In this document: one piece after another, positions 1 to 23,214 of the stretch | Numbering within the stretch: the first letter of the stretch is position 1 | Layout: each line of letters starts with the position of its first letter | Source of the DNA: Balneola sp. | GTDB taxonomy: Bacteria > Bacteroidota > Rhodothermia > Balneolales > Balneolaceae | Direction: 5' to 3' | Length of the DNA: 64,000 nt | Assembly (NCBI GenBank): GCA_002696035.1 | Contig: NZQV01000017.1 | Coordinates: forward strand, 101,690-165,689 | The notes under the pieces: generated by a model | The model's database searches: none | Told to the model about the DNA's origin: nothing | What the model saw: only the letters and a program-made list of their open reading frames with translations | Made by a program: the position numbers and the translations under genes

Positions 1-429
1 TAATACATTTTCTACAGTATCAGAATCTGTCAAATGTTTTCTCAGACTTCCATATTGCTTGTTGTCAAGACCATCAAAAGGTTCTGCACCCTCACCTGAT
101 ACAAGATTCTTGGTTTTACTATTAATAATATTCATGATGCCATTTAATTCATCATACCTTTGATTATATTTTTCAAATAGCTGAAAAAATATACTCATGT
201 CATTGTGCTTCTGTCTCATAAAAGCAAAGAGCAGAGTCAGAATACCTAATATCATTCCAAGCCATGTTCGGAATTCTATTTGATCGTCCGGTACAGCACC
301 AATAATTCCACCGTCTGTTATTACATCAACAATCGAAAAAGCTATTACTACTAATAGACAAAGTATGAGGAATGAAATTATCCCTTGATCATGTCTGTAT
401 AACCAAAACTTAATTCTATAGTGATTCAT
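1..429 (-). CDS. Partial membrane protein, possible phage abortive-infection (putAbiC-like) protein
   Basis: The reading frame is open from an ATG at 427-429 to the left edge (143 codons), so the C-terminus is missing. It starts one base after the methyltransferase stop codon, which implies translational coupling in one operon. Two hydrophobic segments are visible at about residues 17-38 and 53-70. They are followed by a charged stretch with the pattern FFQLFEKYNQRYDEL (about 78-92), which recalls the start of the cytoplasmic part of putative phage abortive-infection proteins (two N-terminal TM segments, then an FFxLL-like motif). Seen: the frame, the TM segments and the coupling. Inferred: an AbiC-like role, supported mainly by the defence-gene neighbourhood. 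It could equally be another two-TM membrane protein. Confidence 0.5.
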   Translation of the reverse strand, partial: MNHYRIKFWLYRHDQGIISFLILCLLVVIAFSIVDVITDGGIIGAVPDDQIEFRTWLGMILGILTLLFAFMRQKHNDMSIFFQLFEKYNQRYDELNGIMNIINSKTKNLVSGEGAEPFDGLDNKQYGSLRKHLTDSDTVENVL

Positions 430-430
430 T

Positions 431-2338
431 TTACACCGTTCTGAATTCAATTTCTTTGCTCTTAAATAGCTGAACGGCATTGGTCTTTAAGGCATCCGCA
501 TCATCACCTGTAAATCCATTGTCGAGGCATATTACTCGTTGTGGTTCTTTCTCTGAAATAGCATCTAACACCTCAAAGGTTAAACCTTCAGCCAAGCAGA
601 TCATGAGTTTGCCATCTTCCACATTGAATACATTCTTACCTTCAAGTTCTATCTTCTCAATGTTTGCCGTAAGGGGGAAGCCGGATTTAAGGATGAGTTC
701 AAATAAGATACTTTCTTTTTCATTTTCCGGATTTAGATGATCAGAGAATGCATCCAATTGTTCTTTCAATTTCTCCGGTTCAATATCTACACCGGGGGCC
801 TCCCAAACTTTAAAATTGGATGGGGTGAGTTTTAAGACTTTAAAACCCAGATCCAGTTCTTTCTCCTTTTTACTTTCCTCTTTGAGTTCCAGTTGCTTGC
901 CTGATTTTTGATCTTCCTTAATTTGTTTAATGACTCGTCGGATACGTTCTTTACCAATATCCGCAATACTTCCAAAACCGGCTTTTCTTGCTTCTGATTT
1001 CTCCTCTGTTGGCTCAGGAATCTGAACCATTATAAATTTTCGGTTTCCTCCATCTTCATGATTTTGATTTAGTACTGAGTGAGCTGCAGAACAGGAGCCA
1101 GCAAAAAAATCTAAAATAATGTCCTCTTTTTGAACATTTGCAACCTTTATAATTCTTCCCAATAACCTTATCGGCTTAGGTCCGTCAAAATACCCCCTAT
1201 CATCAAACAATTTCTTAACTTCTTGTCTTCCTTCTTGGTTGTGTCCCACATCTTCATGAAGCCATAAAGTTGTTGGAACAATACCATCTTGAATTTCAGA
1301 AAGAAATCTTTTAATTCTGGGTACGTTATTGCCATCTTCACCAAACCAAATCCTATTATCTTCAACTAACTCTTCAAATTTCTCCTTTGATACCCTCCAG
1401 CATGAGCCATGTGAAGGATTAACTATTCTACCCGATGGAGTCTCAATTGGGTAATCATACTTTTCAGAATATGTCTTAACTGTTAAATCACCTGAAGCCC
1501 AAGCACCCCTGGGATCATTATCAATATTCTTATACCTACTATCTTGATCTTCAGTTCGTTCTAATCTGCCTGCCTCAAAATTTGAACTGTCTTTTGAGTA
1601 CATAAGAATATAATCATGACTGTCTGATAAAAATTTCGCGTCATTTTTAGGAGAAAATGCTCTTTGCCAAATTATGGATGAAATAAAATTCTCTTCACCA
1701 AAAATTTCATCACATACTTTCTTTAGGTTAGCCATTTCATGGTCATCAATCGAAATAAAAATTACTCCATTTTCCTTCAACAAGTTTTTAGCCAAAAACA
1801 AGCGAGGATACATCATATTCAACCACTTGGAATGGAAACGCCCTTCCGTTTCTTTATTAGAGGACTGCCAATTTCCCTCCGCATCTTTTTGCCCCGTATA
1901 TTTCAAATAAGTATCCAGGCTTTCCGTGAAATTGTCCGGATAAATAAATTCATTCCCGGTATTGTAAGGGGGATCTATATAGATCATTTTTACTTTCCCG
2001 AAGTAACTCTTTTGAAGTAGTTTAAGCACTTCTAAATTATCCCCTTCAATAAACAGGTGTTCCGTCTCATCAAAATTTACCGACTCTTCACGATCCGGTC
2101 TTAATGTAGCAACACTTGGCTGCTGAATAGTTTTCATGCACTCCGCCTTACCCGGCCATTGCAATCCAAACCTCTCTTTACCGGGATCTACCCATTCACC
2201 GAGCACTCGCTTCAGGTGATCAAAATCTACTTTGTCTTCTCTAAAAACTTCAGGGAACAGTTGTTTCAACTGCTGCTTCTTTTCATCAGTGATGTCCATT
2301 GAGCGGAGATCGAGTTTATCTGGGGTTTCTTTGGGCAT
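431..2338 (-). CDS. Type III restriction-modification-like adenine-specific DNA methyltransferase (Mod)
   Basis: A 635-residue beta-class N6-adenine methyltransferase that would transfer a methyl group from SAM to adenine in a short asymmetric site. Catalytic motif IV is DPPYNTG at residues 122-128. SAM-binding motif I comes later, as LDFFAGSCSAAH (409-420), the order expected of the beta class. Motif I reads GSCSAAH where GSGTTAH is more usual. Length and architecture fit Mod subunits of type III systems. No Res helicase-nuclease is visible: the next gene downstream is the small membrane protein at 1-429, and upstream is the divergent SIR2-HerA pair. It may therefore be an orphan or part of a hybrid system whose remainder lies off the left edge. 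Its 174-bp upstream gap is shared with the SIR2 gene and may hold divergent promoters. Confidence 0.88.
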   Translation of the reverse strand: MPKETPDKLDLRSMDITDEKKQQLKQLFPEVFREDKVDFDHLKRVLGEWVDPGKERFGLQWPGKAECMKTIQQPSVATLRPDREESVNFDETEHLFIEGDNLEVLKLLQKSYFGKVKMIYIDPPYNTGNEFIYPDNFTESLDTYLKYTGQKDAEGNWQSSNKETEGRFHSKWLNMMYPRLFLAKNLLKENGVIFISIDDHEMANLKKVCDEIFGEENFISSIIWQRAFSPKNDAKFLSDSHDYILMYSKDSSNFEAGRLERTEDQDSRYKNIDNDPRGAWASGDLTVKTYSEKYDYPIETPSGRIVNPSHGSCWRVSKEKFEELVEDNRIWFGEDGNNVPRIKRFLSEIQDGIVPTTLWLHEDVGHNQEGRQEVKKLFDDRGYFDGPKPIRLLGRIIKVANVQKEDIILDFFAGSCSAAHSVLNQNHEDGGNRKFIMVQIPEPTEEKSEARKAGFGSIADIGKERIRRVIKQIKEDQKSGKQLELKEESKKEKELDLGFKVLKLTPSNFKVWEAPGVDIEPEKLKEQLDAFSDHLNPENEKESILFELILKSGFPLTANIEKIELEGKNVFNVEDGKLMICLAEGLTFEVLDAISEKEPQRVICLDNGFTGDDADALKTNAVQLFKSKEIEFRTV

Positions 2339-2512
2339 GCTATAGGTATATTCTAATTGTTTTGACTTAATCTAACAAAACCCTATTCCTTATGAAATAA
2401 GAGTATTTGTTTCAATGAATTGAGGAGTGTAAATCAATCCTTTAGTAATTTTTTAATGTTTGAGAAGAATATTGCATCTTAGCGTGAACTGATTGTTTTA
2501 AACATAGACATA

Positions 2513-3751
2513 ATGAAAGATTTAGACTGGAGTAAAGAACACATCTTATGGATTGCAAATAATGTCCCTGAAGAAGTAGGTGATCTGGATTCAAAAGTTT
2601 TAAGGAAAAAAATTGAACCTTGGCTTACAGCTGTTTTTCAAAGTGAACACCTTTCTCTATTACTTGGTACTGGAATTACAACGGCTGTTGTTAATGAAGC
2701 AAATCAAGAAGCCCAAGCTATGGATCGACTTGAATTTTCCACCTGTGGAAATGTGATTAAGGATTCGGCTGATGAGTCAGCAAAGCTTATGGACAGAGGC
2801 AAAGCAAATTTTGAAGATGATCTAAGAACAGCAATTGAGCTCTGGAATGGATTGAAAATTTCCAAAAACGATAAGGCAAAAGCCTTGAAAAATGAAATTG
2901 ATACTCAGTTAGTCAACTTAGTTAAAAGCCTACTCGAAAATGAAAAAAAAGTGCTTGAATCAACTGACTATCATTCAGCTATGGCGCTACTAAAACAATT
3001 TCTAATTAGTTTTAGTAGCCGTACTGCTACCAGAGACCGACTTCATATATTTACTACCAATTACGACAGGTTCCTTGAACATGCTTTAGACTTATCTGCA
3101 ATCCATGTTTTAGATCGGTTTATTGGGAAACTGTCCCCAATTATGCGAATGAATAAGATGGAGTTGGATTATCATTATAACCCACCAGGAATTAGAGGTG
3201 AACCCAGATATGTTGAAGGGGTAGTGCGTTATACTAAGTTACATGGTTCACTGGATTGGCGGTTAAATAATAATGAAATCAGAAAAGAGCCTATTCAATT
3301 TGGTGAGGTTCCCGATAAAATTTCTAATCCATTTGAAGCTAAAGTAATTTATCCAAACTCTGCAAAAGGGATTGATACAGCCTATTTTCCTTATTCTGAA
3401 CTATTCCGTGATTTTTCAAGCGCAACCTGTCGACCAAACTCAGTTCTGATTACATATGGTTACGGTTTTGGCGATACCCATATTAATAACATCATACTTG
3501 ACATGATGACGATCCCCTCAACTCATCTTGTCATCATTTCATATGATAAAGCTGATGGTAGAGTTGAAAAGTTTGTCAATAAGTGTAATCCATCTCAATT
3601 GACTCTTTTAATAGGCAACCATTTTGGAAAGCTGAAAACTCTCGTTAAAAATTATCTACCTAAATCAGCAATTGATAGAATTTCAAAACGACAAGCAAAA
3701 GTAATGGAAGTAAGAAAGGAAATTGACAATTCGGACGATACAGATGAGTGA
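2513..3751 (+). CDS. SIR2-domain NADase-type antiphage effector (SIR2-HerA system)
   Basis: A 412-residue protein with a SIR2-like domain of the defence type. It has LLLGTG at 49-54 (NAD-binding GAG-like loop), TTNYD at 181-185, KLHGSLDW at 242-249 (contains the conserved catalytic-type His) and YGYGFGDTHIN at 315-325. In antiphage systems of this class the SIR2 domain depletes NAD+ when activated. The stop codon overlaps the start of the downstream HerA gene (ATG at 3744), so the two are translationally coupled, as expected for subunits of one complex. The sequence matches the Nezha/SIR2-HerA two-gene layout known from defence surveys. No Shine-Dalgarno sequence is obvious before the ATG. 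Function follows from family and context; triggering and target phages are unknown. Confidence 0.88.
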   Translation: MKDLDWSKEHILWIANNVPEEVGDLDSKVLRKKIEPWLTAVFQSEHLSLLLGTGITTAVVNEANQEAQAMDRLEFSTCGNVIKDSADESAKLMDRGKANFEDDLRTAIELWNGLKISKNDKAKALKNEIDTQLVNLVKSLLENEKKVLESTDYHSAMALLKQFLISFSSRTATRDRLHIFTTNYDRFLEHALDLSAIHVLDRFIGKLSPIMRMNKMELDYHYNPPGIRGEPRYVEGVVRYTKLHGSLDWRLNNNEIRKEPIQFGEVPDKISNPFEAKVIYPNSAKGIDTAYFPYSELFRDFSSATCRPNSVLITYGYGFGDTHINNIILDMMTIPSTHLVIISYDKADGRVEKFVNKCNPSQLTLLIGNHFGKLKTLVKNYLPKSAIDRISKRQAKVMEVRKEIDNSDDTDE

Positions 3752-5858
3752 TTACCAGGATACATACGACTTTGAACATATAAGAGAACAAGCAGTCGGC
3801 TCAGTTGAGTTCGTATCTCCTCATGAAATTAAGGTTTTATTGGATATTAATGCTCCCAAGAACACCGCAATCAATACTGGAACCCCTCAACTTTTTCCAA
3901 AAGTAAATGGATTTGTGCTAATACCTAATGAAGCTGGAGCTTTGGTCTGTATTATTTCATGGGTAGGAGTTGAATACTCACAATTTCCTAAAAGAAAAGG
4001 TTATCAGGATTTTAATTTAATTGATCTTCCATTCCCCCTAAGAAAGTTATCAATAAGCCCACTTGGCAACCTAAAGGAAAACAATGGGGAATATGAAATA
4101 GAGAGAGGTGTATTTAGTTTTCCTTCCGTGGGGGATATAGTTGTTGTGCCAAACAAGGATCAGCTTCAAGCAATTGTCCAGAATAAGGACAAAAATGCAA
4201 AAGTTAAAATTGGAACTTCTCCAATGGCTGCAAATGCACCAGTTTATGTTAATCCGGATAAAATCTTCGGAAGGCATACCGCCGTTCTTGGCAATACCGG
4301 TAGTGGTAAATCATGTTCAGTGGCAGGTTTGATCAGGTGGTCTTTAGAAGCAGTAACTAAAGAATTAGGAGAAGGAGAAGAATCTAACTCAAGGTTTATA
4401 GTGTTAGATCCTAATGGAGAGTATTCAAAAACATTTGATGATTTAGGTTCTACTGTAAACAAATATCAAGTTAAAATAGATGATGATGTCAATACAGGTG
4501 GTATTGAGCAGTTAAAAATCCCTTCATGGATGTGGAATAGTTTTGAGTGGAGCTCTATTTCACAAGCTACACAAAAAACTCAACGACCTATTTTGAGGAG
4601 AGCTTTAAAAGAGGTTAAAGCTGGTACAGATGATAATGAAGTTGATCTATTATTACCTAAGCGTACTATTACAAGCTTATTAATAAGTTTGAAAAATATA
4701 GAGAAATCAGGAGTAAGCGGTTATGCAGAATTTCCTGGTAAGCAAAATTTGGGCGAAATGCTTCAGTCCTCGATAGAATCTCTTGCGGTAGTGGCCGAAG
4801 ATTTAGAAGGTGATGCACGTAAAAAAATTCGCGAAATTGCCAGCTCAATAAATACTGTTTTAAATAGAAGAAAACCCAATAATAGCGGATATTATCCGGC
4901 TTTCAATTTAAAAGATATTTCTGAAATCAAGGAAAAAATTCAGGATGCACAAACAGTTTTTGGTGAGCTAACCCCTTATGAAGGACCTGATGAAGATACT
5001 CCTTCATTTTTTGAGAATGAAGATTTCGTAAGTCATTTAGAGCGACTTGCAAATGAGAATAACGTTCAACAATATTTAGATTTTTTCATAATGCGAATAC
5101 GAAGCATTCTAACTGATGTACGTATTTGTTCGGTAATCGAAACTTCCTCTGATACTGAAGTTACTCTTGAAGATTGGCTTGAGGATTATATAGGAGAGAA
5201 TGAAAAGCCCTCGATTAACATTATTGATCTATCGCTGGTACCCTCAGAGATTTTGTTTATCGTAGTTGCTGTATTAACTCGTATCATTTTTGAAGCACTT
5301 CAGAGGTATAGAAAGAAAACCAAACAGGTATTGCCCACAACCTTAGTGGTAGAAGAAGCTCATAATTTCATTAAGCGTTACAATACAGACCATGATGAAA
5401 TTTCAGCCAGTCGGCTTTGTGCTCAGGCTTTTGAGAAAGTAGCAAAAGAGGGAAGAAAGTTTGGTTTGGGGTTGGTTATTTCTTCTCAAAGACCTTTTGA
5501 GCTTTCTCAGACGGTTTTATCTCAATGTAATACATTTTTACTTCATCGCTTGGTTAATGATAAAGATCAGGAGATGGTTAAGAAGTTAGTTCCAGATAAT
5601 TTGGGGGGAGTTTTGAATGAACTCCCCATTTTGCCTACCCAAAAAGCAGTTCTTTTGGGGTGGGCTGCACCAATTCCGACATTGGTTGAAATGAATTACC
5701 TACATGAAGAGCAACGGCCAAAATCCGAAGATCCTGATTTTTGGGATGTTTGGACAGGAAAAGAAAAACGAGAAGTCGATTGGAGCGCAATTGCTAAAGA
5801 GTGGCAAAACTTTGACAAAAATGATAGTGAAGAAGATGGAAATGCTAAGCAAAGTTAG
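3744..5858 (+). CDS. HerA/DUF87-type hexameric ATPase (SIR2-HerA system)
   Basis: A 704-residue HerA-FtsK superfamily ATPase. It has an N-terminal HAS-barrel-like beta region (about 10-150), Walker A GNTGSGKS at about 183-190, a FIVLDPNGEYS segment typical of HerA, Walker B LVVEEAHNF near residue 537, and the EGRKFGLGLVISSQRP segment that follows in HerA proteins (sensor and arginine-finger region). I chose ATG 3744, which overlaps the SIR2 stop by 8 bases, rather than the in-frame TTG at 3723 seven codons upstream. HerA assembles as a hexamer and in the known system scaffolds SIR2. The gene's last 4 bases overlap the end of a convergent 58-codon frame on the other strand. The paired layout makes the assignment strong. 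Confidence 0.88.
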   Translation: MSDYQDTYDFEHIREQAVGSVEFVSPHEIKVLLDINAPKNTAINTGTPQLFPKVNGFVLIPNEAGALVCIISWVGVEYSQFPKRKGYQDFNLIDLPFPLRKLSISPLGNLKENNGEYEIERGVFSFPSVGDIVVVPNKDQLQAIVQNKDKNAKVKIGTSPMAANAPVYVNPDKIFGRHTAVLGNTGSGKSCSVAGLIRWSLEAVTKELGEGEESNSRFIVLDPNGEYSKTFDDLGSTVNKYQVKIDDDVNTGGIEQLKIPSWMWNSFEWSSISQATQKTQRPILRRALKEVKAGTDDNEVDLLLPKRTITSLLISLKNIEKSGVSGYAEFPGKQNLGEMLQSSIESLAVVAEDLEGDARKKIREIASSINTVLNRRKPNNSGYYPAFNLKDISEIKEKIQDAQTVFGELTPYEGPDEDTPSFFENEDFVSHLERLANENNVQQYLDFFIMRIRSILTDVRICSVIETSSDTEVTLEDWLEDYIGENEKPSINIIDLSLVPSEILFIVVAVLTRIIFEALQRYRKKTKQVLPTTLVVEEAHNFIKRYNTDHDEISASRLCAQAFEKVAKEGRKFGLGLVISSQRPFELSQTVLSQCNTFLLHRLVNDKDQEMVKKLVPDNLGGVLNELPILPTQKAVLLGWAAPIPTLVEMNYLHEEQRPKSEDPDFWDVWTGKEKREVDWSAIAKEWQNFDKNDSEEDGNAKQS

Positions 5859-6031
5859 CGTTGGTTCACATTCTTGAAATATTCTTCCAGCATAAATTCT
5901 ATTTCGAGAAATATAATCCATTCTTTCGATTCCACAACCTCACTCAATAACTTCCAGGATTCCTCCCAAGTGAGAGTGCCACGTACTAAATTGTGTATGC
6001 CTTTTGTTAGTCTAAGCTCTTTCTCAGTCAT
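5855..6031 (-). CDS. Small acidic hypothetical protein (58 aa), convergent to HerA
   Basis: An ATG at 6029-6031 opens 58 codons to a TAA at 5855-5857, overlapping the HerA stop tail to tail. The product is rich in Glu, Trp and Leu (for example LTWEESWKLL near residues 20-29) and would be helical and acidic. It lies just beyond the attC-like element at 6111-6162, on the same strand as the other orphan genes, so it could be a small cassette gene. No family is recognised. Its small size and lack of a clear ribosome site mean it may not be translated. Confidence 0.35.
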   Translation of the reverse strand: MTEKELRLTKGIHNLVRGTLTWEESWKLLSEVVESKEWIIFLEIEFMLEEYFKNVNQR

Positions 6032-6110
6032 TTAAAGCTGTTTTTGCTTAAAACTTTATATAGTAAGAGCGATGAGGATGGAATTCCTTACAGTTAATTT
6101 TATAACATTT

Positions 6111-6162
6111 CAGGGTTTAAGCAACGAGCCTAATTGTAGAATTAATGTCTCGAACCCTAAAC
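6111..6162 (-). repeat. attC-like inverted repeat D
   Basis: On the + strand the arms are AGGGTT...CGAG and CTCG...AACCCT around a short spacer, with a taagcaa bulge in one arm only. Unequal arms with unpaired bases are typical of integron attC hairpins. The arm sharing CTCGYTGCTTAAAC (minus strand) is also found in element C at 7998-8024. The element lies immediately downstream of the minus-strand gene 6185-6769, where an attC of its cassette would be. No covariance search could be run. Confidence 0.5.
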
Positions 6163-6184
6163 GAATCCATGTGAAGCCACCTTA

Positions 6185-6769
6185 TCATTGCTCTTTAAAT
6201 ATAAAATATATAGGCTTATACCTTGGTCCAAAAAATGAGGAGGCTGGTAAAGAGGATCTGGCTTCTCTAATGAAGTTTTCAAAGCTTTTCATATCGAAAA
6301 CATTACTATTTTCGATCATTTTGATGATTTCTAATTTTCCTAAAACGAGATCACCTTCTGCCAAAATTGCACTTATAGGATTTAAATAATTACTTAATAG
6401 ATCTCCTTTTAGGGTTAACCATAAAACATCAATCTCATTAGATAAATCCCAGAAATTTTTTGCTAATGGACAACCAGCTATTACTGGCAAGTTGTGCGAT
6501 ATGGCGTATTCTTGAAATTCTAACAACTCTGGGTTTATAGTTATATATATATCATCACTTTTGTCATTTTTAAGTTTAGGTCTTCTTGGAAACACTGCAA
6601 GTAATTTGAATCTATCATCTAAATGAACGGCCTTGGAAATGTTGCTTGTTTCCCGAGTCAACCATGGATACACTGGTACAACCGTTTTAAAGTGATTACC
6701 CAACTTCGATTTTAAATCGGAAGTTAAATAATATTCAGCTGTATGTTCGTTGATGAAGCTAGTAGCCAT
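6185..6769 (-). CDS. Hypothetical protein (194 aa), probable cassette gene
   Basis: No family is recognised. The product is soluble-looking with no signal peptide or TM segment. It is a mixed alpha/beta sequence with a short basic patch (PRRPKLKNDK, about residues 61-70) and a central hydrophobic stretch around VIAGCPLAKNFWDL. It is flanked on both sides by attC-like elements (6111-6162 downstream, 6795-6889 upstream), and its start codon lies about 25 bases from the core end of the upstream element, as in integron cassettes. Composition is AT-rich like the rest of the island. Its location beside SIR2-HerA makes a defence or toxin-related role possible, but nothing in the sequence shows it. 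Confidence 0.6.
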   Translation of the reverse strand: MATSFINEHTAEYYLTSDLKSKLGNHFKTVVPVYPWLTRETSNISKAVHLDDRFKLLAVFPRRPKLKNDKSDDIYITINPELLEFQEYAISHNLPVIAGCPLAKNFWDLSNEIDVLWLTLKGDLLSNYLNPISAILAEGDLVLGKLEIIKMIENSNVFDMKSFENFIREARSSLPASSFFGPRYKPIYFIFKEQ

Positions 6770-6794
6770 GTAAAACAGTTATTGAACACTAATA

Positions 6795-6889
6795 GCCCAG
6801 CGCTTAGCAGGCACTGGGATTATGAGTTAAAAATGGATTAATTATTAAAAACAGGTAACTTCGGACTCCAACGCATTGTTCGCATCACC
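6795..6889 (-). repeat. attC-like inverted repeat A
   Basis: The core half at 6795-6826 aligns base for base with that of element B (10622-10653): both begin GCCCAGCGC and end GATTATGAG, with about eight mismatches over 32 bases. The opposite half (6854-6889) contains GCGAACAATGCGTT on the minus strand, resembling the inverse core of attC sites. It lies between two minus-strand orphan genes and about 25 bases before the next start codon. Confidence 0.55.
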
Positions 6890-7030
6890 GACTAATACTT
6901 TTGTGCCCTTTTTCCAATTGGACTAGGAGAACCTAGTAAGCAATCCAACGAGGACGCTAGGAACGAAGTTAATTACCATTCCTAAACGATCTGATGGAGA
7001 AAACATGAATTTTTCTCATAATTCTTATTC

Positions 7031-7939
7031 TCACTTTGACTTAAGTGATTTAGCCTTATCATAGATTCTTTTCCCATCAAAATGGACTTCAATTCTTTCT
7101 TTGCAATTCAAAAATATTTTTTCTGACTCATTTGCACTATGAATTGCAGAGCTCAGGTCCCCATAAATCGAATATAAAGATGGGTACTGGGATTTGAAAT
7201 CAACAGGTAATCCTTCTGCATATTTTTGAATTACACTATCTGCCTTATCCAAATTCTCATCAATATCACTTCTACAATATTGTTCAATGAATACTCTAAG
7301 CATGAACAGTGCCGGTAATACCTGACCTGAGTTGTATGCAATAATCGCACCTGTGAAGTAGTTGTTAAAATCATTTGGAATAAAATTGGGTATATTAACA
7401 ATCTCCATTGGAGACCTGCCTGTTAAGGTTATTTTATCCTTATCTCTTTGCGCTTGAAAAACCTCTAATCCATTCCTGCAGCTTTGACAATGGAATGTAA
7501 AGGTAAAAACACTTTTAAATTCAGGAACTTTTTTATCAATAAATCTTCTTACTCCTTTTAGAGCGTCGTCAGTTCTTAGAAGATTCATTGGGCCTGATTC
7601 TGCGCAATTTCCACAGGTAGATTTTATACTGTTTAATTTGAAGCTAAATCGTCCAACATCATCATAACCCAATCTTTGGCTTTTGACTGAACTGGGATCT
7701 AAGGCTTCCCAAGACATAAGTTTAAATTCTTCAATTATTTTTAAAGCCTCCTCATACTTAATGTTAGCAGAAAACAAATCGCATTTTGCCTTGATAGATT
7801 TTAAAAAATTATCATCTATAACCTTCACGTTTTGGTAAAGGTGCTTCTTTTCTAAAAGTTTTTTAAAGCAAGATTCAATTCTACTTTTTAAATCATTTTC
7901 TAATTCGAATTTTGAGTAGATAATTAAGTTTGATGACAT
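7031..7939 (-). CDS. Zinc-ribbon protein with DUF4145/HEPN-like C-terminal helices (302 aa)
   Basis: Two Cys pairs, CGNC (about residue 110) and CQSC (about 150), suggest a zinc ribbon in the middle of the protein. The segment after it, with FTGAIIAYNSGQVLPALFMLRVFIEQ in overlapping pieces around residues 192-217, resembles the helical core of DUF4145 and related HEPN-like proteins, and a second helix near the end carries SAIHSANES. The N-terminal 90 residues are helical and unassigned. DUF4145 proteins are common in phage-defence and restriction contexts. The gene lies between attC-like elements A and C on the minus strand. Seen: the Cys pairs and order. Inferred: zinc binding and the DUF4145 link; no catalytic RX4H motif is seen here. 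Confidence 0.6.
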   Translation of the reverse strand: MSSNLIIYSKFELENDLKSRIESCFKKLLEKKHLYQNVKVIDDNFLKSIKAKCDLFSANIKYEEALKIIEEFKLMSWEALDPSSVKSQRLGYDDVGRFSFKLNSIKSTCGNCAESGPMNLLRTDDALKGVRRFIDKKVPEFKSVFTFTFHCQSCRNGLEVFQAQRDKDKITLTGRSPMEIVNIPNFIPNDFNNYFTGAIIAYNSGQVLPALFMLRVFIEQYCRSDIDENLDKADSVIQKYAEGLPVDFKSQYPSLYSIYGDLSSAIHSANESEKIFLNCKERIEVHFDGKRIYDKAKSLKSK

Positions 7940-8157
7940 TAAAAGTATATTTTGTTTTCTATATTAAAAATAATCAGATTAATTATTTAATACTAAAGAC
8001 CCAACGTTTAAGCAGCGAGTCTGGTTACTTCAATTAGGGTTTTGGGCAGAGACTTGTAACCTTACAATCTTTCAGTTAGTAGTTTTCAATTGACACTGAG
8101 TTAGTTCTATTGTCGGCTTCCCCAAAAACTGGACCAGTTAAAAGTAGAATGTTCGGG

Positions 8158-8943
8158 TTAATTTAAGAGTTCTATCGGTGTTTTATACCCCAAAGATTTA
8201 TGGGGGCGGTGGTGGTTATAATCGTACATCCATTGCTGCGTTTTTTCTCGCACTTCATCCAGAGTTTTAAACACATACGCGTTCAGCAGTTCCTGTCGCA
8301 TACTTCCATTTAAACGTTCTATATAAGCATTTTGCGTGGGTTTACCCGGCTGGATAAAGGCCAAGGTGATTTGGTGCTCCTTACACCACTGGTCGAGTAT
8401 TATGGATATAAATTCCGGGCCGTTATCCACCCGGATCATCTTCGGAAGCCCTCGAGTTTCTTTAAGCCGTTTGAGCACTCGAATGACCCGCAGCGCAGGC
8501 AGACTCGTGTCGGTTTCGATCCACAGCACCTGCCGGTTGTAGTCATCGATCACATTCAGCAGGCGATAACTACGCCCGTCCCACAGGCTGTCGTGCATAA
8601 AGTCCAGGCTCCATACCTGATTGGGCTCTTCTGGCTGGAAGAGGGTTTGTTTAGCTCGTGCTGGAAGTCGTTTCTTTGCTCTGCGACGAATGTTGAGTCC
8701 TAACATCGTATAGACCCGGTAGATCCGTTTATGGTTCCACGCCCAGCCCTGGTTGCGAATTCTCCAGTAACAGCTCCAAAAGCCAATGGAAGGATGTCGG
8801 TCAACCAAAGCTAACAGCACATCAATCACATAGCTGTCATCTTTCGGCCTGTGCTGGTAACTATAGGTGCTGCGGGGAAGGCCCACGGCCTTGCAGCCCT
8901 GACGAATGGATATCTTATGCTCATCTCGCATATGAGTTACCAT
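8158..8943 (-). CDS. IS3-family transposase OrfB (DDE integrase domain)
   Basis: A 261-codon frame with the HTH-like region of IS3 OrfB (RHPSIGFWSCYWRI) followed by the rve catalytic core. The first Asp is in WSLDFMHDSL, the second in RVDNGPEFIS, and the Glu in QNAYIERLNGS. The C-terminal NHHRPHKSLGYKTP motif is intact. The frame actually continues upstream of its first ATG (KKAVSPDVKRE), so the working protein is most likely the OrfAB fusion made by -1 frameshifting at 8970-8977. Length and motifs are normal for the IS407 group. Confidence 0.93.
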   Translation of the reverse strand: MVTHMRDEHKISIRQGCKAVGLPRSTYSYQHRPKDDSYVIDVLLALVDRHPSIGFWSCYWRIRNQGWAWNHKRIYRVYTMLGLNIRRRAKKRLPARAKQTLFQPEEPNQVWSLDFMHDSLWDGRSYRLLNVIDDYNRQVLWIETDTSLPALRVIRVLKRLKETRGLPKMIRVDNGPEFISIILDQWCKEHQITLAFIQPGKPTQNAYIERLNGSMRQELLNAYVFKTLDEVREKTQQWMYDYNHHRPHKSLGYKTPIELLN

Positions 8944-8963
8944 TTCCCGCTTAACGTCAGGAC

Positions 8964-9230
8964 TTACAGCTTTTTTTCCATTACGTCTTTGAGGGCATGA
9001 TGAACCAGACTCAAGTCCGCATACATACGCTTCAGGCGACGGTTTTCGGCTTCCAATTCTTTCAGACGCGTAAGCTCACTGACGCTCATGCCTCCGTACT
9101 TGGCTTTCCAGTTATAGAAGGTAGCCGGGCTAATTCCGTGCTCACGAGCCAGATCGGCTACTTTGCGTCCCTGCTCATGCTGGGAGAGAATAGAGATGAT
9201 TTGGGATTCGGTAAATCGAGATTTTTTCAT
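8964..9230 (-). CDS. IS3-family transposase OrfA (helix-turn-helix, leucine zipper)
   Basis: An 88-residue DNA-binding subunit that recognises the IS ends. The N-terminal HTH is typical (RFTESQIISILSQHEQG, then VADLAREHGISPATFYNWKAKYGG), and residues 55-75 form the leucine-zipper-like LKELEAENRRLKRMYADLSL used for multimerisation. It ends in EKKL at a TAA just past a run of seven adenines, the expected place for the -1 frameshift that joins it to OrfB. Confidence 0.93.
   Translation of the reverse strand: MKKSRFTESQIISILSQHEQGRKVADLAREHGISPATFYNWKAKYGGMSVSELTRLKELEAENRRLKRMYADLSLVHHALKDVMEKKL
8970..8977 (-). promoter_or_regulatory. Programmed -1 frameshift site (A7G)
   Basis: On the minus strand the codons GAA AAA AAG near the end of orfA form an A7G slippery run. 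Slipping back one base gives KKAVSPDVKRE and reads on in frame into orfB, a sequence typical of IS407-group OrfAB fusions. The site is inferred from family knowledge and the conserved junction. Confidence 0.75.
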
Positions 9231-9376
9231 AGGTCAAAAGTAAGAGTTTTTCTACTTTAGACCGGACGAATTTTAGGGAAGCTGACACTATAATCTAGTA
9301 TGCAACCTGATAAACTTGAAATCCTTTGCCGATGGTATGAAGTGTCCGACTCATTATACGGCTTGGGTTAAGAAGT

Positions 9377-10597
9377 CTAGGTAAGTATCGTTGATCCTGT
9401 TTTTATGATTATACTTTCTGATATGAAGTACATTAAGGGTAATTCTTTACTAATTATTTCTTCTTGGCCCCCAAAGGGTATAAGCCTTGTTTCTTTTAGA
9501 TCTTCTTTATTGTGAACTATGATATTTCGAATATGATATATTCTTCTTGCTATTGAATTGGCAAATTTATCAGATTTGAGTTCAACCTTAAATTGCTTGT
9601 CAAAAATATTGTTAGATTCTGAGTAATGAATGCCTTTCTTTTCCTCGTAATCCTTAATCCAATCCTTAATCTCATTCAGTTCAAAGTATTCTCCTAATAC
9701 CATTTCAAGCATTTTTTGCTCATTACTTCTTTGGTCTTGTTTTCGTACAGTATCGACTAATTTTTTTAACTCTTTAGGTTTTTCAATCGAAAATGTAGGA
9801 GATGATATTTTATCTGAAACTAAGCTGTATAAAACTTTCTCTGATGACGAGATGAAAAAATATTCAATGATATTATACAAAGCTAAGTAACTGAAAATCG
9901 GACTTGCGCTTGAAAGAGCTAAATTATGATATGATATAAGCTTTTCATTATAATTTCTGACTGGGAATTCAGGATATCTTCCATGGGACTCATAAAAAAA
10001 TTGATCCTTTTTATCCCAAAATTCTAACGGTACAATTGCTTTTCCACTAGAATAGGAAATATTAAATAGTGCTGATTTGGCTATTTTGTGCAGATAATTC
10101 TTGTCGGAAAAATTTACATAAGAATCTTCAGCAGTGACTTTTATTGAATAAGCGATATTTGATAATCTATTAAAAGGTATTGTATCACCACTCATAAAGC
10201 CTGATAACAAAAAACTGTCAGGATAGCGTCCTGAAATATGATTATACAAGTTATTATCAATCAAGAAGAGAATAAAAAAGTTTGAAATCTGCGACAGGTC
10301 TACTCTAATATTACCGGAAGAATTTTCAAGTCTTTCATTTATATAAGTACCAAATGGATAATGAGAACCCTTCGCTAGTTTAGGTTCTACAAATTGTTCA
10401 AAGTAACCGTTATAGAAAATTGAAGTTTCTGGATCATTAACAATCTTAGATCTTCTTTGGTAATAGTATTCTAGGTCAAGCTTATCTAAACTCAGTATAG
10501 CTCGCCCAGCTTCCAAGTGTAGACTCTCTTCAGTTTCACCTACTATAGAGACTTCGAAATCAGTAAATATTGCATCACAAGCTTTTTGGAAATCCAT
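9377..10597 (-). CDS. Hypothetical protein (406 aa) with C-terminal HEPN-like RX4H motif
   Basis: No close family is recognised. The first 250 residues are mixed alpha/beta without signal peptide or TM segment. The C-terminal quarter is helical and contains ARRIYHIRNIIVHNKED, in which RNIIVH fits the R-X4-H motif of HEPN ribonucleases and of apea-type HEPN domains found in abortive-infection proteins. The gene starts about 25 bases past attC-like element B and stops just before element C, so it has the layout of a cassette gene. A HEPN RNase or toxin role is inference from one motif and from the island context; a non-catalytic HEPN scaffold is also possible. Confidence 0.6.
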   Translation of the reverse strand: MDFQKACDAIFTDFEVSIVGETEESLHLEAGRAILSLDKLDLEYYYQRRSKIVNDPETSIFYNGYFEQFVEPKLAKGSHYPFGTYINERLENSSGNIRVDLSQISNFFILFLIDNNLYNHISGRYPDSFLLSGFMSGDTIPFNRLSNIAYSIKVTAEDSYVNFSDKNYLHKIAKSALFNISYSSGKAIVPLEFWDKKDQFFYESHGRYPEFPVRNYNEKLISYHNLALSSASPIFSYLALYNIIEYFFISSSEKVLYSLVSDKISSPTFSIEKPKELKKLVDTVRKQDQRSNEQKMLEMVLGEYFELNEIKDWIKDYEEKKGIHYSESNNIFDKQFKVELKSDKFANSIARRIYHIRNIIVHNKEDLKETRLIPFGGQEEIISKELPLMYFISESIIIKTGSTILT

Positions 10598-10621
10598 GAT
10601 TACTTTCTTCTAAGCCTACCG

Positions 10622-10726
10622 GCCCAGCGCATAACGGGGGCGGAGATTATGAGTTAATTAACGGCTAAAAATTTAAAACAAACAACCCTGTAAACCGATG
10701 CTACGGCCGCATCCTCAGTTATGCAC
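10622..10726 (-). repeat. attC-like inverted repeat B
   Basis: Matching boxes GTTATGC (minus strand, core end) and GCATAAC (distal end) bracket arms of GC-rich sequence (CTCCGCCCCC and GGATGCGGCCG) that can pair imperfectly. This is the layout of attC sites, with one mismatch to GTTRRRY/RYYYAAC in each box. The core half is shared with element A. It lies immediately downstream of gene 10730-11584. Confidence 0.6.
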
Positions 10727-10729
10727 TTA

Positions 10730-11584
10730 TTATGTAGTTTTTTTTTCAAAGGATTTAGCTTGGGGTGAATTATATATTCTAGATCTTTTTCTATACCATT
10801 CGGGTGGGTTTAGATGCTCAGGAAATCTAATTGTACCACGATTTAGCCAGTAAATTATTAGTGGAATAGTAAATACTAAAGGAATTATTAATGCTGCTAT
10901 TGGTAAAAGTAAAGTCCAAGCATTTTCCCAACCTCCAGTTATATGTTTATAAATATACGGAACAGAAATAATTGCAGCTATTTGCAAAATTAATGGGATT
11001 ACGCAGCCGAGTTCTGGAAAACTAAGAGAGTTTTTCTCTTTTTTCCCTTTGATTAAGCCATCAGGCATACCAATAATTGTTCCTTTTAAGCTAGCAACAG
11101 TATCAGGACTATCTGTTACAATTTGAATTATTCCTCCATCTAAATGATCAAGAAAATCAAAGTCAATAATTGCACTAGCTTTGCTATTCACTTCTTTTAT
11201 TTTTTGGATAGAAACATTGCAAACATCTCTTGTTACCCCACTTATATTAATATCAAGTACATTAGCTCCATCTATTTCAACTCGAAGAGGATCATTACTT
11301 GTCAAGTCTTCTTTTGATATTGGAATACGACCAAAATTTGTAAAACGCACGTATTGAAGAATCACACTGTTAACAGTCTCTCTGCTTTCTCCAGTTCCTT
11401 CATAAACAATTTTAATTGAATACCCACTTTGCTTTGAAACAGCATCAGCAATTGGTGTTGGAGGTAAAATGTCATATGTAAGTTTTTTTTCTTTGTGGCT
11501 AGTCCGAAAGGCATAAATAGCATACCCTAAGCTAATAATAGTAAGTATAGCACCTATTATTCCTACAACAATACCTGTTTCCAT
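10730..11584 (-). CDS. Hypothetical membrane protein (284 aa)
   Basis: One TM helix lies at the N-terminus (VVGIIGAILTIISLGYAIYAF, about residues 6-26). A soluble beta-rich domain of about 160 residues follows, and two further TM helices lie near 196-215 and 225-245 before a basic tail ending in KSFEKKTT. The central domain (SGYSIKIVYEGTGESRE, then LQYVRFTNFGRIPISKEDL) resembles the beta-sandwich seen in many uncharacterised membrane-anchored bacterial proteins. It lies directly upstream of attC-like element B on the cassette strand. A sensing or membrane-disruption role in defence would fit the layout but is speculation. Confidence 0.6.
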   Translation of the reverse strand: METGIVVGIIGAILTIISLGYAIYAFRTSHKEKKLTYDILPPTPIADAVSKQSGYSIKIVYEGTGESRETVNSVILQYVRFTNFGRIPISKEDLTSNDPLRVEIDGANVLDINISGVTRDVCNVSIQKIKEVNSKASAIIDFDFLDHLDGGIIQIVTDSPDTVASLKGTIIGMPDGLIKGKKEKNSLSFPELGCVIPLILQIAAIISVPYIYKHITGGWENAWTLLLPIAALIIPLVFTIPLIIYWLNRGTIRFPEHLNPPEWYRKRSRIYNSPQAKSFEKKTT

Positions 11585-11791
11585 AAAAGAGTTTTAGTTA
11601 AAAAAATAATTTAAGCCATATTACATACCAATGATAAACATTTAAACTACCACAAAATATATCATTCAAACAAGGAATCCATTCTAAACTTTAGAAATCA
11701 ATGTATTTACAGGAAAATGATCAATAAACTCATTCAAATAAATTGGCTGAATAAAAGTTCATTAAACATTCGTTTTCAAGGAATCTTCTTC
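11585..11791. other. AT-rich intergenic stretch, no gene seen
   Basis: Very AT-rich sequence upstream of gene 10730-11584. It probably holds that gene's promoter, but I see no motif good enough to mark. No attC-like repeat was recognised here, so the upstream cassette boundary of the last orphan gene is unclear. Confidence 0.4.
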
Positions 11792-11917
11792 TCAGCGCAA
11801 TAACCATATATCTTGATCATGCCACCCGTCTCTTTCCAGCCGAGCTTCAAATTTGCGAGAAATAGTGTGAGCTATAATGGGTGTATCTGAAGGGATGATT
11901 ATCTTAAAGTCTGCCAT
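11792..11917 (-). CDS. Small hypothetical protein (41 aa)
   Basis: The frame has an ATG at 11915-11917, preceded at a suitable distance by GAGAGGAA, one of the clearer Shine-Dalgarno sequences in the island. The product starts MADFKIIIPSDTPIIAHTIS and continues through KFEARLERDGW to a TGA at 11792-11794. The pattern (a short beta segment, then an amphipathic charged helix) looks protein-like, but no family is recognised. It could be a remnant of a longer gene. It sits between the orphan-gene array and tRNA-Phe. Confidence 0.45.
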   Translation of the reverse strand: MADFKIIIPSDTPIIAHTISRKFEARLERDGWHDQDIWLLR

Positions 11918-12144
11918 AATATCAATTCCTCTCTTCCACTCACATGAATTAAAGTCTAATTAAATCATTTTTGTAAGTAATATCAGGCTATCGCAGTCAA
12001 TACCTTAAAGTATTTTGAATGCAGCAACCATATATTTATTGCAGAAAATTTCATCCTATTTCGTATCAATAAGCATGAAACCCCTTCAATTTGAAGTACC
12101 CTCCAGTTACCCTCAGCCCAAAATACAAGGCGATTTTATACAAA

Positions 12145-12191
12145 ATAAAAAAGCCTTGAGCCGCTATAAGTTAATGCGAGTCAAGGCTTTA
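12145..12191 (-). terminator. Rho-independent terminator after tRNA-Phe
   Basis: AAGCCTTGA (12151-12159) pairs with TCAAGGCTT (12181-12189) around a 21-base loop, and on the minus strand the hairpin runs into TTTTTTATTTT. It lies 9 bases past the 3' end of the tRNA and so ends its transcript. Confidence 0.75.
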
Positions 12192-12199
12192 CTTGAGTG

Positions 12200-12272
<73 letters not shown>

Positions 12273-23140: not shown

Positions 23141-23214
23141 ACTTAGTTAGAGTGATGAAAAGGGGATTCCTTACAGACTTTTTTTTGAATTCGATTTTGG
23201 GGTAATAAATACAA

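Follow-up and report, generated by a model that had tools for sequence, protein, structure and literature searches.

A decayed integron end on a tRNA-Phe island of Balneola sp.

Is the row of minus-strand genes near one end of this stretch of Balneola DNA a gene-cassette array, and does it still work as one? Integrons are gene-collecting devices best known from antibiotic resistance, and capture of cassettes by their integrase, IntI, is established for integrons generally. The stretch analyzed here, the window, is 64,000 nucleotides of a 3.97-Mb draft genome (C21:101690-165689; C denotes a contig of this genome, G000, G a genome of its family, and L a fetched locus). A reading made from the sequence alone had proposed an integrase-less cassette array. 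That observation is sound in substance: at this locus, the end of an integron has decayed on an island inserted in a tRNA gene. Positions 5855-11810 read as an eroded integron front end: a relic of the attI site is followed by four genes, an attC-like site accompanies each of them, and no intI adjoins the row. A 42.7-kb island in a tRNA-Phe gene carries this row at one of its ends. We put at roughly 0.87 the probability of this account, in which an IntI likely gathered the genes, intI was likely lost, and little or no mobility is predicted for the genes today.

We trained an attC covariance model, R1, on 42 sites drawn from seven further integron loci (L032, L033, L037, L038, L039, L040, and L105), with the genome under study held out. 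The training sites follow the textbook plan: R″ TAAC, spacer AA, L″ GCGTTTCAA.CGGAC, a variable loop, L′ CCGCTTAAACGC, spacer TGGGYC, and R′ GTTA (box names as we take them to be used). The named structure is formed in 90.4% of cells, and both sides have changed in 11 of 21 pairs. Its covariation score of 0.188 was reached by none of 500 shuffles, which overstate significance for related rows, and sliding the structure by 1-3 columns left only 0.028-0.063. As a positive control, R1 recovered all four attC sites of the complete integron on contig C3 (62.3-114.3 bits). In the window, R1 detected site A and, up to an E value of 10, no second site. Site A, in which the R″ and R′ boxes are altered, also matches a cassette boundary of the C3 integron (80% over 45 bp, E 6e-4). 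The plan corrects one detail of the sequence-only reading: the GTTATGC/GCATAAC boxes that it pointed out are the inner L boxes, and the R boxes lie outside the TGGGYC spacer.

The other sites became visible with a matrix of the conserved L′-R′ half (28 columns, trained on other genomes), with which we scanned the 64 kb on both strands. Ranks 1-4 in the window fall to sites C, A, D, and B (scores in Table 1), all on the minus strand, and the fifth match scores 5.1. Maxima in 20 plain shuffles of the window averaged 3.5 and reached 15.6 at most, and the scores of A and C were reached in none of 200 dinucleotide-shuffled windows. Scores of at least 8.8 on the minus strand of 5800-12000 arose in 2 of 2000 shuffles. 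A search with nhmmer supports A, B, and C, the yardsticks being E 4.6 for the best other match and E 6.4 for the reversed window. Since the top four half-site matches in the window are A-D and no shuffle in 200 equaled A or C, the sites are more than chance.

Several results weigh against this account. Sites B, C, and D fail R1; with filters off on 5700-12200, eleven further matches appear, all of 9.4 bits or less, with D among them. Taken singly, the half-site score of B was reached in 18 and that of D in 11 of the 200 dinucleotide-shuffled windows, and nhmmer gives D no support. The R″-L″ halves are not significant, the 4.6 of site A being the best in the window where shuffled maxima average 4.8. 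A tblastn search found no credible intI remnant. By R1, the count of sites of the type expected in a cluster of attC sites lacking an integrase (CALIN) is one of four, and by the half-site matrix A and C are clear and B and D weak. From the covariance, half-site, and nhmmer results, A is old yet readable, C has one sound side and is interrupted by an insertion sequence (IS), and B and D are eroded. The four places at which attC-plan repeats had been noticed between minus-strand genes remain candidate sites, A having passed a held-out model, but as full attC sites they reduce to one by R1, with no significant R″ side.

At the head of the row, the DNA is homologous to the attI site of the C3 integron. 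When aligned to the C3 stretch from intI to the first cassette, 11591-11830 scores 123 (500 shuffles: mean 16, maximum 47), and by blastn 11713-11807 matches the sequence immediately upstream of intI on C3 (79% over 96 columns, E 8e-15). Among 22 printed stretches upstream of intI, the cassette-strand end is a AATAATATG/TTA-like core in 17; L011 and L014, on phage contigs, carry a variant, and L104 (truncated), L035, and L013 (an empty stretch) are without it. Homology between attI copies stops at this crossover-like core, which in the window carries many changes. We called intI with the NCBIfam integron-integrase model TIGR02249 (cut-off 265 bits), and contig C21 has no match to it at E 0.001. 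Because no intI remnant was found, the former presence of intI is argued from the attI and promoter relics.

Downstream of the relic, 5855-11584 hold five minus-strand genes encoding, in transcription order, proteins of 284, 406, 302, 194, and 58 amino acids (aa). A candidate attC site follows each of the first four, and this order of gene and site is repeated four times, once with an IS in between. The 284-aa gene ends (10730) on A and the 194-aa gene (6185) on D; the end of the 406-aa gene (9377) meets a stretch that by eye, unscored, looks like the opposite half of C. For the 302-aa gene, the end (7031) lies about 140 bases from B. Within the array as proposed, 8111-9287 is an IS. Two of the products (406 and 302 aa) are predicted to have HEPN ribonuclease activity.

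Table 1. Features of the integron end, its island, and the promoter motif (positions in the window unless a locus is named).
Feature	Position	Strand	Remarks
attI relic	11610..11775	-	homologous to C3 integron attI; recombination point near 11612 (GTAATAT replaces GTTA)
Worn intI promoter region	11776..11807	+	motif with 4 mismatches; 0 of 1000 shuffles reach this part alone; no intI
Cassette gene 1, 284 aa	10730..11584	-	no usable family match (family models only; homologues not searched)
attC A	10614..10735	-	R1 44.7 bits, E 5.1e-9; half-site 25.2; nhmmer E 1.5e-7
Cassette gene 2, 406 aa	9377..10597	-	predicted HEPN-type C-terminal domain, invariant R-x4-H; DzbB-like, E 1.8e-7
attC C, R″-side remainder beyond IS	9292..9376	-	by eye, unscored
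IS3-type IS inside attC C, 1177 bp	8111..9287	-	two open reading frames (ORFs), 8964-9230 and 8158-8943; CTAT duplicated at 8107-8110 and 9288-9291
attC C, R′-side part	7993..8110	-	half-site 25.7, best of window; nhmmer E 0.026
Cassette gene 3, 302 aa	7031..7939	-	weak HEPN-like C-terminal fold
attC B, eroded	about 6789..6889	-	half-site 8.8; nhmmer E 0.017
Cassette gene 4, 194 aa	6185..6769	-	family without name (80 rows)
attC D, eroded	about 6102..6190	-	half-site 9.9; R1 6.6 bits (E 2.9); nhmmer E 11
58-aa ORF	5855..6031	-	own promoter motif at 6063-6091
Right 63-bp end repeat	12185..12247		within 3′ part of tRNA-Phe (12200-12272); identical left copy C21:71257-71319
SIR2 and HerA genes	2513..5858	+	SIR2 550.6 bits, HerA 923.9 (PADLOC models)
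Type III restriction Mod	431..2338	-	735 bits; Res adjoins outside window, L111:16901-19792, 1014.6 bits
Promoter motif, example	6063-6091	-	pattern match
Promoter motif, example	23146-23174	-	pattern match
Promoter motif, example	L009:18687-18715	+	pattern match

The island that carries this row spans 42,680 bp within the tRNA-Phe gene. Its end repeats are identical, and a 401-aa tyrosine recombinase gene (Arm-DNA-bind_3, Phage_integrase) starts about 165 bp inside the left one. The empty site is present in G024, a genome of the same genus, where the left flank is joined to tRNA-Phe (96% over 99 columns) beside the same neighboring gene (83%), and also in G029 (89%). Ten relatives were searched with R1 (E up to 1) over the roughly 14 kb that follow recJ and tRNA-Phe, and none had an attC match.

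Elsewhere in the genome, integron parts are plentiful. Three proteins exceed the intI cut-off, on C3 (431.8 bits), C2 (361.1 bits), and C16 (341.3 bits); the nearest named intI relatives are Balneolaceae-type records with about 60-64% identity. The array is thus integrase-less as a locus, but its genome is not. C3 holds a complete chromosomal integron with intI followed by a divergent gene row separated by attC sites; by eye, the row includes toxin-antitoxin-like genes. Across the genome, R1 gave 25 matches up to E 10 (2 on C2, 4 on C3, 1 on C11, 3 on C12, 5 on C14, 5 on C16, 2 on C20, and 3 on C21; 150 of 968 first-look candidates were scored). In the gene rows inspected (C3, C14, C16, and C21), the matches stand in cassette-type rows, and a scatter of such repeats beside unrelated conserved genes, which would have counted against the sequence-only reading, was not seen there. 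C3-type attI sites without an adjacent intI occur at C14:350310-352524 (L157; 95% identity), where the site heads three attC matches, and at C8:112637-112785 (L158; 81%), with no attC match in the fetched 10.8 kb. Moreover, C16 (31885-36142; L013 and L014) and C2 (63328-64793 and 92826-92949; L011, L012, and L168) carry phage-borne integrons: each combines tailed-phage head genes (terminase or protease, portal, and major head protein) with an intI over the cut-off, and attC matches number at least five on C16 and two on C2.

From these observations, we infer capture by an IntI, loss of intI, and present immobility. A C3-type IntI would have recombined circular cassettes, each a gene with its attC hairpin, at the G/TTA point of attI, and repeated capture there would yield a same-strand gene row with an attC ending each gene. 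Once intI was lost, mutations would have worn the R boxes and stems, and an IS would have split one attC. The cargo would now be ordinary island cargo beside the SIR2-HerA and type III restriction genes, with any movement left to the island integrase.

How far this decay has gone speaks against an array that still works, in which the IntI of C3 would excise and shuffle the cassettes in trans and the attI relic would be a live docking site. C3 does encode an intact IntI over the family cut-off, site A is still detected by R1, and the C14 attI shows a close copy of the C3 site heading attC matches with no intI beside it. However, in the window GTAATAT has replaced GTTA in a much-changed attI core, the R″ and R′ boxes of A are altered, C is split, and B and D are barely recognizable; we judge a working array to be quite unlikely. 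Still less probable, and refuted for A and C by the shuffled windows, is a chance resemblance to attC of hairpins or terminators of the ordinary kind, lying between island genes that are unrelated to one another. The failure of three of four sites in the covariance model fits that idea, and B and D on their own could be chance, but the four sites are the top four of the window and an attI relic heads their row.

The relic itself could be read in another way, as a small mobile unit at 11610-11775 (a cassette with no ORF or an element resembling a miniature inverted-repeat transposable element) that also lies ahead of other genes, so that the array would consist of this unit and a set of cassettes. 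The copies on C14 and C8 and those of other genomes have a sharp start close to the outer inverted repeat and no intI promoter, and some occur in genomes whose own intI has a different attI type. Yet the right end of the block is the crossover-like core found upstream of intI in 17 of the 22 printed loci (two more have the variant), the block separates intI from cassette 1 on C3 and in part does so in G031, and the window copy continues into the worn intI promoter. We hold the mobile unit to be unlikely and prefer a decayed attI.

We read the row as the decayed end of an integron and not as an intact CALIN because three of four attC sites fall below model detection and an attI relic comes first. 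PMC9024848 (IntegronFinder 2.0) defines a CALIN as an attC cluster lacking an integrase with at least two detected attC sites. The window shares with it attC-type sites and cassettes without intI; it differs in that one of four sites passes the covariance model, an attI relic is present, and the whole lies on a tRNA integrative island. The proposed CALIN thus survives as an integron-derived row without adjacent intI, but one that is older and larger than had been thought. As described in PMC9892861, which also reports integrons in phages, Shewanella prophage M16-3 holds a CALIN with its own attI. There, too, the cassette row of an inserted element begins with an attI that has no intI, and a complete integron lies elsewhere in the genome, but the phylum is another and prophage genes flank the row, whereas the window row lies on a tRNA-Phe island with defense genes and has eroded sites. 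In the integron remnant of Treponema phagedenis (PMC3607928), attC sites likewise outlast intI; that case is a chromosomal integron which its lineage has lost, with no attI analyzed, whereas the present genome keeps a working-looking integron elsewhere. A further counterpart is that C3 integron, with the same attI family and attC plan but with intI present and intact attC sites (62-114 bits). Our literature search found no integron study for Balneolota; a complete integron is in print for the related Salinibacter ruber.

The integrase genes of the family share a promoter motif that extends beyond integrons. Upstream of intI, GTAAGGANT-N13-17-TCTNAC is strict in 17 of 21 loci (15 of 19 without two that are probably duplicate genomes); L035 and L105 have one mismatch, the truncated L104 has no motif, and phage contig C16 has three mismatches. 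Of the 68 loci fetched from other groups, 33 were compared; no strict motif occurs in these, and three match with three mismatches. In the genome under study, GTAAGGANT-N13-16-TCTNAC stands at 30 sites and the reversed pattern at none; at least one site is present in 48 of 57 family genomes. The genes behind the motif were taken as the longest frames starting within 220 bases of the 30 sites, 16 of which were run against family models. They include the intI of C3 and of phage contig C2, ComEC, a YifB-type ATPase (presumably the family of ComM), Ssb, RadC, RecQ, and RecF (103 bases off), as well as GIY-YIG, PD-(D/E)XK, and DUF559 proteins, IS200 and REP-type (Y1) transposases, 23S-IVP proteins, and PAS, TPR, and uncharacterized genes. 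The ComEC frame, cut by the locus end, is above the Pfam cut-off and below the NCBIfam equivalog cut-off. The set looks like a DNA-uptake or competence regulon that may include the integron integrase. Through a motif common to intI and comEC, ssb, radC, recF, and recQ, the capture of cassettes would be coupled directly to the uptake of DNA, either in place of the SOS response known from Proteobacteria or in addition to it. Control of intI by SOS is the known scheme (PMC3108266), and PMC8565304 reports that Balneolaeota have a conventional LexA regulon; our search found no paper on the motif. As a side observation, the 58-aa ORF of the window has a 54-aa paralogue at C14:671082 (L247), both reading MTEKELRLTKGIHNLVR... 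and each lying directly behind the motif.

Among 89 family genomes, attC matches (R1, E up to 0.001) occur in 71, intI over the cut-off in 48, and similarity to the attI block in 16. A 20-base attI core with at most two mismatches was found 30 times in 22 of the 89, against 3 times for the reversed pattern; the block and core counts include copies adjoining intI (C3 and G031). Since attI sites without intI are present in other family genomes, one integrase may act on several loci. We offer only tentatively, as a rather unlikely reading, a distributed integron of Balneolota in which one integrase, switched on together with DNA uptake through a shared promoter, would serve attI sites on the chromosome, islands, and phages, with captured DNA stored at many loci and the window as a decayed outpost. 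Separately, upstream of intI in L032-L040, L105, L159-L164, and L175, each attI shows by eye short repeats of its own, such as TTATCC/GGATAA, GTTATGCGACAT, and GTTCAATAA; closely related species have different sets, as though the type of attI or the specificity of the integrase had been exchanged. The family-wide attC sites, the attI sites without intI, the phage integrons, and the motif that intI shares with comEC, radC, ssb, and recF, suggesting competence-type control, may matter more than the array itself.

The window places integron parts on a tRNA integrative island, where they ride and decay beside defense systems. SIR2, HerA, and type III Mod lie on the same tRNA-Phe island, and the row continues this defense island as the sequence-only reading had said. 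Its further suggestion that cassettes carried defense genes finds no support for SIR2-HerA, which has no flanking attC match (none in 1-5855) and lies on the opposite strand to the array; SIR2-HerA and the type III restriction system are neighbors on a shared island, not attC-flanked cargo. In the window cassettes, the link to defense is limited to the HEPN-type model predictions. Further island genes comprise an FRG gene (PDC-S15, 147.5 bits), a TrlF-family gene (731 bits, cut-off 350), a RES gene, a weak HEPN match, and YqaJ. The TrlF gene, which encodes a 992-aa ATPase outside the window (L111:1787-4765), has attC matches on either side at 1628-1743 (58.4 bits) and 4785-4874 (38.6 bits) and is the sole one of these listed defense-type genes between attC matches. 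Within L111:1118-5678 (C21:82807-87367), this attC-flanked gene is followed by the FRG-domain gene, a cassette-type pair with defense-associated genes. Finally, L111:13427-16897, beside the type III restriction genes, contains a RES-domain gene, two genes of no assigned family (one weakly cll-like, PADLOC), and a 153-aa HEPN-like gene.

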